A stretch of DNA of 21,008 bases from a virus. Shown in pieces: positions 6,014 to 11,611 of this stretch; positions within the stretch are counted from its first letter, which is position 1; each line of letters opens with the position of its first letter. The notes beneath the pieces are model-generated. The model was given only the letters and a program-made list of their open reading frames with translations. It made no database searches and was not told where the DNA came from. The translations under genes were made by a program, and so were the position numbers. The stretch is taken from IMG/VR virus record IMGVR_UViG_3300020187_000267, positions 1 through 21,008 of that record, one strand, 5' to 3'.

Positions 6014-8086
6014 ATGATAAGCTACTATAAAACGATAACAAAACCAATACCCGAGCGAAGTATTTCTATTTCCTCTTTCATAGATTTGGTCAAAAGCAAT
6101 AGCTTTGAATCTATTTGTAATGACATTCGTAGATCTCCGGACAAAGAAACTAGGCAAAGCATAAAGCAAAAATTACCAGCAGTTACCTTTTCCGGTGTTT
6201 TCCATAAAAGATCTATTAACTCCATTAAAGAGCATAGCGGTGTTTTAGCATTAGACATCGACACTGATGATAATCAACAGATACTAACTGACACGATCTA
6301 TGAAGAAACAAAGAGAAGGTTATGCTTAGATCCCATCGTCCACTTTTTCTTTAGATCGCCTTCCGGCGGGATCAAGGTCGGCGTAAAGATTGCAAAGGAC
6401 CTAGATCAACATGTACAGCACTTCGAGCAACTTTCCCATTACTTTCTTTCCACCTATGGGTTAGTATGCGATAAAGCATGTCGGGACGTTTCTAGGCTAT
6501 GTTTCGTCTCGCACGATGCAGATGCTTACTTCAAGGAATCCAGCAAAACATACCAACTTAGAATTGCAAAAGTGGAGGAAACAAAAACCTTTCTACCTAG
6601 CAATAATGTGTCAGACTTGCCTGGGGATCAATTTAACGCAAAGGTTGATCCATCAGTGCTGCTAATTGAAAATGGTTGGACATCAAGGGATGGGAGATAT
6701 TGGACACGACCGGGTAAAACTGCTGGAATCTCTGGAACGCTAGGAGTAGTAGCTGAGAACGTTTTCTTTTGCTTTTCTAGTAATGCTTCCCCATTGGAAC
6801 CAAACAAGTCCTATACGTCCTTTGCCTTGTTTACTTACTTTAACCACCAAGGAAACTTTAAGGAAGCTTTAAAGGAGCTAAATCAAAACGGAATGAATAG
6901 CAGCGGGCCAGAGATTAGTCCATCTCTTGTTAAGTCTATTAAAAACTTGGTTGGTGAAGCAATTGAGGAAAATGAAAACAAATGGAAGGAAAAGATTGAC
7001 CCAGAAGTTCAAGCTGCAATTCAGTTAATTGAAGAGAAATCGGAGTCAGAGGGATTCTTAGCAAGTCTACAAGCCTTGAAGGCAAATGGAGATGCAACGA
7101 TAGAATCTATGCGGAAAAGATCTCAAGAAGCAGTCTTCATACTTCCAGACGTTGCTCTATCCGGAGACTCTACTCTTATTAATGCTTCGCCAAATACAGG
7201 TAAGACATTAATAACACTTTGGCTACTTTCCAAGGGTGATCTAAAGGGAAAGGAAATCTTCTACATTAATGCAGATGATTCATTTAATGGGTCTATTGAG
7301 AAAATGGAAGTATTAAATCAGTTTGGCGTTAATACTTTAATCCCAAATGAAAATGGCTTTGGCGTTGACATGTTCGAGGGAATGGTCAAGGGTGCTATTA
7401 AAACAGAGTCTGCAAATAAACTTGTATTCGTCTTGGACACACTTAAGAAATTCTGTAGCACAATGAGTAAGGATGAAGCCAGAAACTTTACGTCTTTAAT
7501 TAGAGGATTTACTCAGGCAGGAGGGACGGTTATTGCATTGGCCCACACTAATAAAATGAAGGATAACAATGGTAAATCAATTGCTGAAGGTGTTTCCGAT
7601 TTTGAGAGCGATTTCGATTGCGCTTACACTATTGAAAAGCAGCAAGGCATGATGGAAAGCGATAAGCGCATTGTTTGCTTTGAGAATAGAAAGAATAGAG
7701 GGCCAAACTCCCTTAAGCTTACTTTCGCCTACGATGGATCAGAAAAAAAGTCTTGGACACATCGATTCCACTCCGTGCAACGTCAAGATAGCGAGAGTGC
7801 ATCTATTCTAGTCCGTAGGAACGAAGAAGAAACTTTCTTCAATGAAAATGAATCAGTTGTTTACTTTCTTCAATCTAAGATTAGTAATGCAACTGAGGAA
7901 CCAATTACAAAGTCAGCATTAGAGAGAGAAGACATTGAATTAGATGGGTCAGGATCAAGAAGCTCACGCAGCAAAGTTCTTGCCAGATTCTCGCAAAGAA
8001 ATGAATTTGAAGACTTTCAACTATGGGAAACCATTCAACTTAAGAATGGCGGAACTGGTTATCAACCCACCAAGAATAAAAAATAA
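6014..8086 (+). CDS. VirE-N-type primase-like / RecA-fold helicase fusion
   Basis: Predicted replication protein of 690 aa. Residues about 50-190 resemble the VirE N-terminal/BT4734-like domain: SGVLALDIDTDDN with Asp81 and Asp83, then FFFRSPSGGIKVGVKI, and a later CRDVSRLCFVSHD. That layout resembles archaeo-eukaryotic primase or prim-pol-like folds. A middle segment (about 215-290) has the DGRYWTRPGKTAGISGT pattern found in phage primase-helicase linkers. The C-terminal half is a RecA-fold ATPase: Walker A ASPNTGKT (391-398), Walker B VFVLDT with Asp475, and a sensor-like VIALAHTNK. This resembles RepA/DnaB-like phage helicases. It stops at 8086 and shares the base A with the next ATG (TAATG). 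The leader is a TTTAATAATA run without a Shine-Dalgarno sequence. Confidence 0.8.
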   Translation: MISYYKTITKPIPERSISISSFIDLVKSNSFESICNDIRRSPDKETRQSIKQKLPAVTFSGVFHKRSINSIKEHSGVLALDIDTDDNQQILTDTIYEETKRRLCLDPIVHFFFRSPSGGIKVGVKIAKDLDQHVQHFEQLSHYFLSTYGLVCDKACRDVSRLCFVSHDADAYFKESSKTYQLRIAKVEETKTFLPSNNVSDLPGDQFNAKVDPSVLLIENGWTSRDGRYWTRPGKTAGISGTLGVVAENVFFCFSSNASPLEPNKSYTSFALFTYFNHQGNFKEALKELNQNGMNSSGPEISPSLVKSIKNLVGEAIEENENKWKEKIDPEVQAAIQLIEEKSESEGFLASLQALKANGDATIESMRKRSQEAVFILPDVALSGDSTLINASPNTGKTLITLWLLSKGDLKGKEIFYINADDSFNGSIEKMEVLNQFGVNTLIPNENGFGVDMFEGMVKGAIKTESANKLVFVLDTLKKFCSTMSKDEARNFTSLIRGFTQAGGTVIALAHTNKMKDNNGKSIAEGVSDFESDFDCAYTIEKQQGMMESDKRIVCFENRKNRGPNSLKLTFAYDGSEKKSWTHRFHSVQRQDSESASILVRRNEEETFFNENESVVYFLQSKISNATEEPITKSALEREDIELDGSGSRSSRSKVLARFSQRNEFEDFQLWETIQLKNGGTGYQPTKNKK

Positions 8087-8315: not shown

Positions 8316-8711
8316 ATGAGTAATGACCTATTTAAAGACTTAAAGGAAATGCACGCTAAGTATGGCGTCCATGAACGTATTAAGACAATGTCGAAGGATC
8401 AATTATCCAACTTCATGATGTTTCGATACAACTGCTTGGAGGAGGAAATGGAGGAACTAAACTATGCTCTTAAAACACGTGACAAAACTGAAATCGTTGA
8501 TGCACTGATTGACCTCACTGTCTTTGCCATTGGAACCTTAGATGCTTTTCTAATTGACGGTCAGTTAGCCTGGGACGAAGTATTAAAGGCAAACATGAAT
8601 AAGACCCCAGGCATTAAACCGGAACGACCCAATCAGTTTGGCTTTCCCGACCTAATTAAGCCAAGCGATTGGATTGCTCCTACTCACAAGAATAACACCG
8701 GATTACTATGA
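8316..8711 (+). CDS. MazG-like all-alpha NTP pyrophosphohydrolase
   Basis: Predicted to hydrolyse a (deoxy)nucleoside triphosphate to monophosphate and pyrophosphate. The metal-binding pattern is clear: a first helix with repeated acids (LEEEMEEL, residues 41-48), then EIVDALIDLTVFAIGT with Glu59, Asp62 and Asp66, and the tail AWDEVLKANMNK typical of phage members. The length of 131 aa suits a single-domain dimer. T4 gp56 (dCTPase/dUTPase) does this kind of work in a phage with modified cytosine, and the genes downstream make a similar role likely here: removing dCTP, or making dCMP for the hydroxymethylase-like enzyme. Substrate choice cannot be read from the sequence. It overlaps the next gene by ATGA. 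Confidence 0.8.
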   Translation: MSNDLFKDLKEMHAKYGVHERIKTMSKDQLSNFMMFRYNCLEEEMEELNYALKTRDKTEIVDALIDLTVFAIGTLDAFLIDGQLAWDEVLKANMNKTPGIKPERPNQFGFPDLIKPSDWIAPTHKNNTGLL

Positions 8712-9067
8712 GCCCAGAAGAAGTACTAGAAAAAGCGATGCAAGTGCGCATTGCTAAGTCCCAAGACTACCAAAGCTTGTGCTCTACAGTAACACAAGCG
8801 CAATACTATCCTCGCGGGATCGAAACGATCTACGATATAATGTGGGGAAAGATGCTAAGGATTAAATCCATAATGGAAGCTACCAAAGCTACCAACGGAG
8901 TTAGCCATCCACAGTATGAATCCATACAAGATTCTGCATTGGATTTAATTAATTATGCATCTTTCCTATCTGCCTACATGGACCACGATATCGAAGGCCA
9001 AAGTATCTACCAAGATGTATTTAATCGAAACCTAGAAGGTCCTTCTATTCTATGCGAAAGCGAGTAA
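8708..9067 (+). CDS. DUF1599 / nucleotide-modification-associated (Nmad1)-like protein
   Basis: The pattern fits the DUF1599 family, named nucleotide-modification-associated domain 1 because it recurs in phage base-modification cassettes: a KSQDY block (residues 17-21), a central helix MLRIKSIMEA, and a late helix with DSALDLINYASFLSAYM. The acids in the last helix resemble the MazG-like all-alpha NTP-PPase arrangement, so it may act on a nucleotide, but I know of no proven reaction. At 119 aa it is a single domain. It overlaps the MazG-like gene by four bases and the hydroxymethylase-like gene by 16, which places it firmly in the cassette. Confidence 0.6.
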   Translation: MSPEEVLEKAMQVRIAKSQDYQSLCSTVTQAQYYPRGIETIYDIMWGKMLRIKSIMEATKATNGVSHPQYESIQDSALDLINYASFLSAYMDHDIEGQSIYQDVFNRNLEGPSILCESE

Positions 9068-9807
9068 GCTTAAAAGGTGCATTGTGGATGCTAAGAAAGC
9101 ATTTGCATGATCATGGTGATGCTGTGACAACCTCAACTTGGCAATCAATGACCAAGCCTCCAGAGTTTCTAGAGGTTCTGCATGCCCATTTTGTGGCACA
9201 AATGGAGCAGACGGAAGCAAAGGCAAGCGATGCGGTGGGTGCTAATCAACCATGGGCAAAGGTTCATTTCGGAGAACGGGTTGGTGGGAAACCACTTAAC
9301 CCGCCTCCTTCGCATTCGATGTGGAACAAGGACACCGAGCTACATCTACTTGCAGATGGAGCATTCTCCCATAGTTACCCAGAGAGAATGTGGTGCGATC
9401 GTCACATGTCCGGCATTAGGTTTAAGTTTGGCAACTTATCAGATGCAGTGCAGTTACTTAAGAAAGACCATACCACTCGACAGTGCTATGTTCCAATGTG
9501 GTTCCCGGAAGATATATCAGCAGCTAACCTAGGCGAGCGAGTACCTTGCTCCTTTGGTTGGCATTTTTTGTATCGGAATGGAAAGCTCCATTGCTCGTAC
9601 CACATGAGAGCATGTGACGCAGTTAGACACTTGCACAATGATTTGTATTTTGCAAACTGCTTAGCGATATGGATGAACGAAGCATGTGGGTTGGATGCAG
9701 AAATTGGAGATTTACACTTCACCTCTACATCCCTACATTGCTTTTTAAATGAGAAGTATTCAATCAATAAACTAATAAGAAAAGAAAAATGTGTGGATTC
9801 GTTATAA
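9052..9807 (+). CDS. Deoxycytidylate hydroxymethylase-like (thymidylate synthase fold)
   Basis: Predicted to add a one-carbon group from methylene-tetrahydrofolate to C5 of dCMP. The fold marks align without gaps to E. coli ThyA: TRQCYVPMW with Arg143, VPCSFG with catalytic Cys166, GKLHCSYHMRACD, then HND with Asp197, and TSTSLHCF. Thymidylate synthase has Asn177 where this protein has Asp197, exactly 31 residues after the catalytic Cys. T4 gp42 has Asp179, 31 after Cys148, and shares the NVGSLH-like ending (here STSLH) and similar length (246 versus 251 aa). From T4 and engineered thymidylate synthases, Asp here favours cytosine over uracil. Methyl versus hydroxymethyl product is not decided by these residues. 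The gene overlaps both neighbours by about 16-19 bases. Confidence 0.75.
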   Translation: MRKRVSLKGALWMLRKHLHDHGDAVTTSTWQSMTKPPEFLEVLHAHFVAQMEQTEAKASDAVGANQPWAKVHFGERVGGKPLNPPPSHSMWNKDTELHLLADGAFSHSYPERMWCDRHMSGIRFKFGNLSDAVQLLKKDHTTRQCYVPMWFPEDISAANLGERVPCSFGWHFLYRNGKLHCSYHMRACDAVRHLHNDLYFANCLAIWMNEACGLDAEIGDLHFTSTSLHCFLNEKYSINKLIRKEKCVDSL

Positions 9808-11105
9808 CAGAAGACAAAAAAAATATAGACCTATACATGTCTATGATTTCTCACAGGGGATTAGATGGATACCAATCCACCTCCACTGTTGGTAAGTTTG
9901 GACTTGCCCATTGTGCATTACCGTTTGTTACTTTAGACAAAAAGATTGCTACCCAACCGGTCAACGGTAGGTCAGTCTTCGTCGGTGAGATATTTAACTT
10001 CTCCCAACTAACAAATAGAGGCTTACCTACTGACGCTCACTTTATGGATCATGTTTTCCATAAAGAGCCAGGCCTACTTAAGAACTCTCACTTATGGGAT
10101 GGGTTTTGGTCTTACGGTACTGTTATTAAGAACAAGCTAATCTTAGTTGCTGACTACCTTAGCCAAAAGCCAATCTACTATCGAACAGATATGAAAGCTG
10201 CTGCTAGTGAGATTACTCCGCTTTTGGCAATGAAGCACTCGAAGCCAGACGAAGTGTTTCTTTCTAACGTTCGTAAATGGGGCTATTCTCCAGATGGTCG
10301 AACACCTTGGGAAAACATTAAGCAACTCGAAGCTGGATGCATGTATGTCAATGGTAAGATAAAGAGGTACTTTAATTGGGACCACGTTCAAACTGGCGAT
10401 TTGTTCCAAATGATGGAATCTGCTGTTGCCTCTCGATTGCAAGGTCAACATGAGGTTGCTTTGCTGCTATCCGGTGGCTTAGACTCTTCCATTGTCTACG
10501 GTTTGGCCAAGAAAGTAATAGATACGATTACCGTTATCCATGTCGAGAACGAAGAAGAGGAATGGGCAAAGCTAGTTCACAACTACCAAGGCGCACAAGA
10601 TCCATTAGAATCTATTTCTATTAATAAGGTAACTGACCAAGAAGCATTAGCTGCACACCAAACACCTGTAGACCTTGGCTCAGTAAAGCCACAGTTAGCA
10701 ATGGCCAAGCGAATTAAAGAGCTTGGACTACATTGTGTACTAACTGGAGACGGTGCAGACGAACTATTCGGAGGATACCGTCGGGCAAGCACCTACGATA
10801 GCCAACAAAGTGACATCTTTAGCGAACTACCTTACTACCATTGCCCACGCTTAGATCGGACAATGATGAAGCACACCATAGAGCTAAGATCCCCATTCAT
10901 GCGGTCAGATATCGTTAAGTATGCACTAAACATACCATACTCGGAACGTAATGGGACCAAGAAGGTGCTAATGGATACGTTCGAATCTATTGTTCCGCAT
11001 GAAGTACTACACCGCGACAAGCGTGCTCTTAAGACCAAAGAGATCTACGAACAACCACTTACACAACGACTACACAACGATTCAATATGGAAAATGATGA
11101 ATTAA
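9789..11105 (+). CDS. Asparagine-synthetase-like class II amidotransferase with altered glutaminase site
   Basis: Two-domain AsnB-family enzyme. The N-terminal class II glutaminase domain begins MCGF, so Cys2 becomes the catalytic N-terminal residue and fixes the start. HRGLD (22-26) and Asp82 match AsnB, but the Arg49 position is Ala43 (GLAHCALP) and the oxyanion-hole Asn74 position is Val65 (VGEIFN). The C-terminal ATP-pyrophosphatase domain keeps the PP-loop SGGLDS (228-233), TGDGADELFGGY (319-330) and LRSPFMRSDIVKYAL. Such enzymes activate a carboxylate as an adenylate and attack it with ammonia or another amine. It is shorter than AsnB (438 versus about 554 aa). It overlaps the hydroxymethylase-like and deaminase genes by 19 bases each. 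Either a host-metabolism gene or a base-tailoring enzyme; context favours the latter. Confidence 0.8.
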   Translation: MCGFVITEDKKNIDLYMSMISHRGLDGYQSTSTVGKFGLAHCALPFVTLDKKIATQPVNGRSVFVGEIFNFSQLTNRGLPTDAHFMDHVFHKEPGLLKNSHLWDGFWSYGTVIKNKLILVADYLSQKPIYYRTDMKAAASEITPLLAMKHSKPDEVFLSNVRKWGYSPDGRTPWENIKQLEAGCMYVNGKIKRYFNWDHVQTGDLFQMMESAVASRLQGQHEVALLLSGGLDSSIVYGLAKKVIDTITVIHVENEEEEWAKLVHNYQGAQDPLESISINKVTDQEALAAHQTPVDLGSVKPQLAMAKRIKELGLHCVLTGDGADELFGGYRRASTYDSQQSDIFSELPYYHCPRLDRTMMKHTIELRSPFMRSDIVKYALNIPYSERNGTKKVLMDTFESIVPHEVLHRDKRALKTKEIYEQPLTQRLHNDSIWKMMN

Positions 11106-11611
11106 ACAAGTGGCACGAACGCTACTTAGGGTTATGTGACTCCATTTCATCGTGGTCGAAAGATCCATCTAGTCAAATTGGATGTGTAATCGTTGGTCGC
11201 AATGGTCAAATCTTATCACAAGGCTACAATGGATTTGCACGCGGGATTAAAGATACGATTGAAAGATACGATGTAAGAAGCCTAAAGTACCGATTAGTGG
11301 TCCATGCAGAGGCAAATGCTATCTACAATGCATCTAGGATTGGTGTTTCCCTAGAAGGATCTACTATGTACGTTAAAGGACTACCGGTTTGTAACGAATG
11401 CGCTAAAGCAGTGATCCAATCGGGCATTTCTACCCTTATCTGCTCATTTGATCACGTTAAACCACAATGGATAGAGTCCTGTGGGAATGCAATCGACATG
11501 CTAGAAGAAGCTGGTGTGTCTTACTACCACTTGGGCCCTCTCCCTAGCAAGCTGAGCAAGCTGAGCAAGCTGAGCATAGGTCTGTTATCACGGGAATATA
11601 GAGATGTATAA
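11087..11611 (+). CDS. Deoxycytidylate (dCMP) deaminase
   Basis: Converts dCMP to dUMP. The zinc site is complete: His73 and catalytic Glu75 in VVHAEANAI, and Cys102 and Cys105 in PVCNECA. Family blocks before it (SKDPSSQIGCVIVGRNGQILSQGYNG) and after it (WIESCGNAIDMLEEAGVSY) also fit. The start overlaps the AsnB-like gene by 19 bases. The C-terminus is odd: LPSKLSKLSKLSIG repeats Ser-Lys-Leu because the DNA there (11545-11577) is a 9-bp iteron array forming one arm of a large inverted repeat. The tail is probably tolerated rather than functional. In this cassette it competes with the hydroxymethylase-like enzyme for dCMP, or supplies dUMP for thymidine synthesis elsewhere. Confidence 0.85.
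   Translation: MENDELNKWHERYLGLCDSISSWSKDPSSQIGCVIVGRNGQILSQGYNGFARGIKDTIERYDVRSLKYRLVVHAEANAIYNASRIGVSLEGSTMYVKGLPVCNECAKAVIQSGISTLICSFDHVKPQWIESCGNAIDMLEEAGVSYYHLGPLPSKLSKLSKLSIGLLSREYRDV

Follow-up and report, generated by a model that had tools for sequence, protein, structure and literature searches.

What does a virus make with a relative of the asparagine synthetase AsnB that is encoded between a thymidylate-synthase-fold enzyme and a deaminase of deoxycytidine monophosphate (dCMP)? The question is raised by IMG/VR virus record IMGVR_UViG_3300020187_000267, whose entire 21,008 bases, probably a fragment, form the window analysed here. Positions 8316-11611 carry five open reading frames (ORFs), all on the plus strand and all beginning with ATG, for a MazG-type pyrophosphohydrolase, an Nmad1-like protein (Nmad1), the synthase-fold enzyme, the AsnB-like enzyme (AsnB) and the deaminase. 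An initial annotation, made from the letters alone, had described them as genes overlapping by 4 to 19 bases that form a candidate T4-like cytosine-modification pathway. The five overlapping genes are real, with successive overlaps of 4, 16, 19 and 19 bases, and the interpretation as a whole is partly supported: the set very probably modifies cytosines that are then built into the viral genome. The cassette for cytosine modification is real and widespread, its tailoring enzyme is uncharacterised, and the conserved unit is the trio of synthase, AsnB and deaminase, not the five-gene block.

Evidence for dCMP as the substrate comes from the synthase-fold enzyme, for which we aligned 45 distinct proteins in 46 rows (the window accounts for two rows, once under its own name and once as locus L001; L044 was left out as too short). 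The catalytic cysteine (Cys166 in the window) is present in 46/46 rows. Every row also has aspartate at the position of E. coli Asn177 (window Asp197, T4 D179), as do the gp42 proteins of T4 and of Serratia phage PS2, and serine or threonine at that of E. coli His147. The nucleotide-binding Arg, Asp and His are kept in an alignment with T4 gp42, PS2 gp42 and others, and the ordinary synthase of phage Motura has asparagine at position 177. According to excerpts of PMC8670742, positions 177 and 147 separate the enzymes of cytosine-modified phage contigs from those of unmodified ones, the enzymes of modified contigs mostly having aspartate at 177. Judged by these residues, the synthase-fold enzyme has a dCMP-type active site.

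Gene order was compared across the 45 loci of a synthase-seeded set, each neighbour being counted over the loci with room for it. The exact contiguous five-gene order, whose conservation the initial annotation had proposed to check, occurs in 0/45; in L017-L019, MazG, Nmad1 and synthase are consecutive and insertions precede AsnB. The trio did stand, with AsnB at most 3 kb downstream of the synthase in 43/43 loci with room (at most 150 bases in 34) and a deaminase directly behind AsnB in 42/42. A single-sequence AsnB scan gave only locus L047, so an alignment was used as query, and 209 stretches of a viral contig collection were then found to encode an AsnB relative. Among the best 80 of these 209, many of whose contigs are common to the synthase-seeded 45, a synthase lies within 4.5 kb in 66/66 loci with room and a deaminase nearby in 78/78. 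Because the trio recurs in distant relatives, and L047 (95% identical) retains the 19-base overlap of AsnB and deaminase, the clustering goes beyond chance. Another 12 genes of the window served as queries and none is shared with these 45 loci, so the cassette moves between unrelated genomes.

The candidate tailoring enzyme, AsnB, combines an N-terminal nucleophile (Ntn) glutaminase-type domain with a PP-loop synthetase domain. Its AlphaFold2 (AF2) model shows two confidently predicted domains (predicted local distance difference test score, pLDDT, 89.8); the best PDB match is E. coli AsnB (1ct9), followed by human asparagine synthetase, beta-lactam synthetase and carbapenam synthetase. An alignment of 44 distinct proteins in 45 rows, in which the L047 row is cut at the N-terminal end, shows the nucleophile N-terminal cysteine in 44/44 rows covering that end and the PP-loop residues S, G, G, D and S (SGG-D-S) in 45/45. 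Equivalents of Gly75, Glu76, Asp98, Asp351, Glu352 and Lys449 are retained across it. The glutamine pocket is altered: the Arg49 position holds serine or alanine in 45/45 rows, and at the Asn74 position the aligner places a gap in 45/45, the residue preceding the invariant Gly-Glu being valine (invariant in 13 aligned proteins, in at least 90% of 41 aligned). Cellular controls, 79 further genome-collection loci aligned by tblastn, keep Arg49 in 67/78 and Asn74 in 70/78; in human asparagine synthetase the corresponding Arg48 and Asn74 form part of the network that recognises glutamine (excerpts of PMC6748925). With the pocket altered in this way, the amide donor may be something other than ordinary free glutamine. 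Since the window protein scores 169.4 bits with TIGR01536, against an NCBI curated cut-off of 267.1 that it does not reach, and since two glutamine-pocket residues are lost, the sequence indicates that it is not an ordinary asparagine synthetase. Replacement of Glu348 by Asp was rejected as a special feature, aspartate being present in 78/79 genome-collection relatives. In phage Motura the AsnB gene belongs to a cluster for 7-deazaguanine (L050:7395-12146), and its product retains both Arg and Asn in the glutamine pocket.

The cassette is found in three unrelated phage backgrounds, which is a weightier argument than the raw linkage counts. The third background is L127, contig RPRB01000006.1 in a Myxococcaceae assembly. 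The 30 proteins chosen from its 61 filtered ORFs include portal, major head, terminase, tape-measure, tail-fibre and DNA polymerase matches, and these structural and replication families make it a phage contig. It encodes an AsnB (38% identical), a C5-methyltransferase homologue, a synthase-like protein (28%) that retains Asp at 177, a MazG and a deaminase, in a differing order; its AsnB keeps the pocket arginine, has the valine and carries serine at Asp98. The methyltransferase, a PF00145 homologue, lies directly behind AsnB (L127:7373-8791), echoing the CmoY-CmoX pairing discussed below, and has HPEC at the site of the PPC-type motif that C5-methyltransferases usually carry.

Table 1. The five cassette genes of the window, with predicted products and principal family matches.
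Predicted product	Position	Strand	Support
MazG/PRA-PH-type NTP pyrophosphohydrolase, 131 aa	8316..8711	+	PF01503 1.5e-08; E43, E44, E47, D62
Nmad1-like helical protein, 119 aa	8708..9067	+	PF07659 6e-04 (below gathering score); phrog_18404, phrog_1485
Thymidylate-synthase-fold enzyme, dCMP-hydroxymethylase type, 251 aa	9052..9807	+	PF00303 3.3e-09; phrog_160 8.8e-29
AsnB-like ATP-dependent amide-forming enzyme (predicted), 438 aa	9789..11105	+	PF00733 4.9e-37; TIGR01536 169 bits
dCMP deaminase, 174 aa	11087..11611	+	PF00383 1.6e-19; phrog_174 3.6e-43

AsnB and the deaminase have strong Pfam support (Table 1), MazG and the synthase fold have moderate support, and Nmad1 stays below threshold; PHROGs assignments agree. 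The Nmad1 label (DUF1599, PF07659), with 20.5 bits against a gathering score of 25, is provisional, though synteny and phrog_18404 point the same way. The deaminase also matches PDB deoxycytidylate deaminases including 1vq2. In MazG, E43, E44, E47 and D62 are invariant and E59 nearly so among 11 aligned proteins, and the EExxE and ExxD elements, which we take to be the motif of the MazG superfamily, are intact in the window protein. Its putative substrates are deoxynucleoside triphosphates, likely converted to monophosphates, and a MazG is present somewhere in the fetched stretch at 26/45 synthase loci. Since phrog_18404 matches both the window MazG (at 52-139) and the window Nmad1 (at 171-250), it represents a MazG-Nmad1 fusion family. 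Relatives of Nmad1 are 40-50% identical and lie directly upstream of the synthase in 15/39 loci with room, elsewhere in 4, and were not found in 20; a scan using Nmad1 as query detected no relative. Its AF2 model (pLDDT 85) gives weak MazG/DCTPP1-like matches: Foldseek E-values against the MazG fold are 0.3 or higher, the VIA Z score for mouse dCTPase is 5.7, amid unrelated helical rows, and hhalign gives a probability of 0.4 percent for Nmad1 against MazG.

Relatives among isolated phages are more distant. In 50,697 deposited phage records there is no close AsnB, the window or L025 AsnB matching only at 24-28% identity. For the synthase-fold enzyme there are matches in 140 records, none of which reaches 60% identity and about half of which are Gordonia phages; distant relatives are publicly annotated as thymidylate synthase. 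In the three of these records that were inspected, KimJongPhill, Almagne and Muddy, the annotated synthase neighbours do not include an AsnB; they do include kinase, MazG-like, dUTPase or deaminase genes. Nmad1 had been said to lack a counterpart in the T4 pathway, but T4-like phages do have one: it adjoins gp42 in Serratia phage PS2, where a beta-glucosyltransferase is also present, and Xanthomonas phage Mallos encodes it as a fusion with MazG next to the synthase, and has a deaminase as well.

We propose that the cassette probably modifies cytosine at the nucleotide level and that the C5 group is then tailored by AsnB. MazG would lower deoxycytidine triphosphate (dCTP) by converting it to dCMP, and the synthase-fold enzyme would use methylene-tetrahydrofolate as one-carbon donor for C5 of dCMP, with 5-hydroxymethyl-dCMP as the most likely first product. 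AsnB, in keeping with its linkage and fold, would activate a carboxylate with ATP, carried either by the base or by an amino acid, and form an amide-type (or ester) bond that decorates the C5 group, thereby filling the slot of the sugar or carbamoyl transferases in known 5-hydroxymethylcytosine (5hmC) pathways. The deaminase would drain unmodified dCMP to deoxyuridine monophosphate (dUMP) for the supply of thymidine monophosphate (dTMP), and the modified nucleotide would be incorporated into phage DNA. We infer the order of steps, the hydroxymethyl first product and the action of AsnB on a modified nucleotide; the T4-like logic originally suggested is well supported by the dCMP-type residues, the MazG motif, the deaminase and the Pfam set shared with the contigs in excerpts of PMC8670742.

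Several observations weigh against this proposal. AsnB requires a carboxylate, which a hydroxymethyl group does not offer; AsnB might attach an activated amino acid, or the synthase-fold enzyme might install a carboxylate-bearing adduct. The glutamine pocket of AsnB is altered. T4-like replication markers occur in 40/45 loci, so that few lineages are represented and the linkage counts are not independent events. The L127 synthase-like protein has no Pfam match, though PHROGs recognises it, and it branches, on long branches, with that of Almagne, which has no annotated AsnB beside it. Finally, a PF16861 carbamoyltransferase is encoded in 4/16 larger AsnB-bearing virus contigs (L211, L212, L213 and L214), roughly 15 to 87 kb from AsnB, and could be the tailoring enzyme there; the alignable parts of these proteins share 25-29% identity with the published 5hmC enzyme, and the neighbouring genes are unrelated.

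Other readings assign the same enzymes different roles. The synthase-fold enzyme might trap 5-methylene-dCMP with an amino acid such as glycine, not water, after which AsnB would amidate the resulting carboxylate, perhaps without free glutamine; the chemistry of MnmE/MnmG on tRNA is a parallel for amino-acid trapping, and we judge this version unlikely. It is rather unlikely that the enzyme is a dCMP C5-methylase producing 5-methyl-dCMP (5mdCMP) while AsnB acts elsewhere: an Asn-to-Asp change in ordinary thymidylate synthase does yield 5mdCMP (excerpts of PMC8670742), but AsnB is always linked to the synthase, and a methyl group would leave it no handle. A genuine asparagine synthetase for protein synthesis, placed in the operon by chance or for its expression, would account for the overall AsnB fold and for the kept PP-loop, Lys449 and acidic Asp351 and Glu352; the score below the NCBI cut-off, the family-wide loss of Arg49 and Asn74, which most cellular relatives keep, and the synthase linkage in three phage backgrounds make this improbable.

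AsnB could also be a CmoY acting on 5-carboxymethylcytosine made in DNA, in a pathway of the CmoA/CmoX/CmoY type. CmoY is likewise AsnB-like (excerpts of PMC12783734), Synechococcus phage S-B43 has MazG upstream of CmoA-CmoY-CmoX, and the gene directly behind AsnB in L127 encodes a C5-methyltransferase homologue. We nevertheless find this quite improbable, as neither a CmoX-type C5-methyltransferase nor CmoA was found in 16 AsnB-bearing virus contigs, which may be fragments (S-B43 as control was positive for both), and CmoY is only 23% identical to the window AsnB, over the PP-loop part alone, and lacks a glutaminase domain; according to excerpts of PMC12783734, CmoA from the host could stand in for a phage copy. 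The classical dTMP route combines a deaminase that makes dUMP with a synthase that makes dTMP, and the thymidylate synthase annotations of distant relatives agree with a module that merely supplies dTMP, yet this reading is very improbable given Asp at 177 and Ser/Thr at 147 in all rows, NCBIfam scores far under the thymidylate synthase cut-offs, and ThyX encoded in 20/45 synthase loci, which makes the synthase-fold enzyme dispensable for dTMP there.

Pfam searches of the window covered its 20 main ORFs out of 68 listed. Among them no nucleotide kinase or glycosyltransferase was found, as the initial annotation had stated, nor a carbamoyltransferase or a PF00145 C5-methyltransferase; since the record is probably a fragment, the missing kinase and glycosyltransferase carry little weight. 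A search for the kinase among relatives was partly successful, the DNMK type being found in some T4-like relatives only (1/16 virus contigs and the T4 control, with a below-cut-off match in L025). A T4-type beta-glucosyltransferase was found in none of the 16, the T4 control being positive. In the T4-like relative L025 (3815-7903), sugar-pathway genes (DAHP-synthetase-type, cytidylyltransferase, cupin and phosphomannomutase-like) adjoin the cassette. Between synthase and AsnB in L017 (2602-4829) lie a 423-aa protein that by eye resembles S-adenosylhomocysteine hydrolase and a methylase-like gene, of whose cluster the member L033 matches PF01555. The rest of the window encodes, by Pfam and PHROGs, a helicase, a RuvC-like resolvase, a primase-like ATPase, a lysozyme-like protein, a gpA-type terminase and a lambda-type portal; a 690-aa protein at 6014-8086 has a BT4734-like domain at its N-terminus and matches CRISPR-associated primase-polymerase type B below the cut-off.

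The cassette suggests that uncultivated phages contain a modified cytosine not yet characterised, with 209 viral stretches encoding an AsnB relative and no close one in the deposited phage records, and would put a name to a likely anti-restriction feature that is invisible to sequencing alone. A further suggestion is that cytosine tailoring by AsnB-type ligation is more general and extends beyond carboxymethylcytosine; in the open-licence literature we found no paper pairing AsnB with dCMP hydroxymethylase. Should amino-acid trapping prove true, unrelated phages would share a cytosine hypermodification of a new kind, synthesised in the nucleotide pool and comparable, on the DNA side, to the wobble bases that bear amino acids.

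Among known systems, the T4 pathway (gp42, gp56, gp1, Cd and glucosyltransferases) shares with the window a dCMP-type synthase fold, a pyrophosphohydrolase and a dCMP deaminase; unlike T4, the cassette adds AsnB and Nmad1, its relatives have a gp1-type kinase only in some cases, and no T4-type beta-glucosyltransferase was found in 16 of them. Experimentally identified cytosine-modified phage contigs carry the same Pfam set together with a 5hmC carbamoyltransferase (MetaGPA; excerpts of PMC8670742). That module, like the window, has Pfams for an Asp177 thymidylate synthase, PRA-PH, dCMP deaminase and MafB19-like deaminase; its tailoring enzyme is a carbamoyltransferase, whereas the window has AsnB, which those excerpts do not name. 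The window AsnB resembles E. coli AsnB (1ct9) in its two-domain fold, N-terminal cysteine and PP-loop, and differs from it in the two replaced glutamine-pocket residues and the missed NCBI family cut-off. In the CmoA/CmoX/CmoY system of S-B43 an AsnB-like AMP-forming ligase tailors a C5-modified cytosine, as proposed here; there CmoX, with carboxy-S-adenosylmethionine (carboxy-SAM), puts the handle on DNA, whereas the partner in the window is a dCMP-type synthase. MazG also accompanies CmoA-CmoY-CmoX, lying two genes upstream of CmoA in S-B43 (L061:4452-7705). Excerpts of PMC12783734 describe the AsnB homologue CmoY as ligating glycine to 5-carboxymethylcytosine in DNA, and a second large ligase cluster, uncharacterised there, that keeps the glutaminase domain; the present AsnB enzymes could be kin of that glutaminase-bearing cluster.

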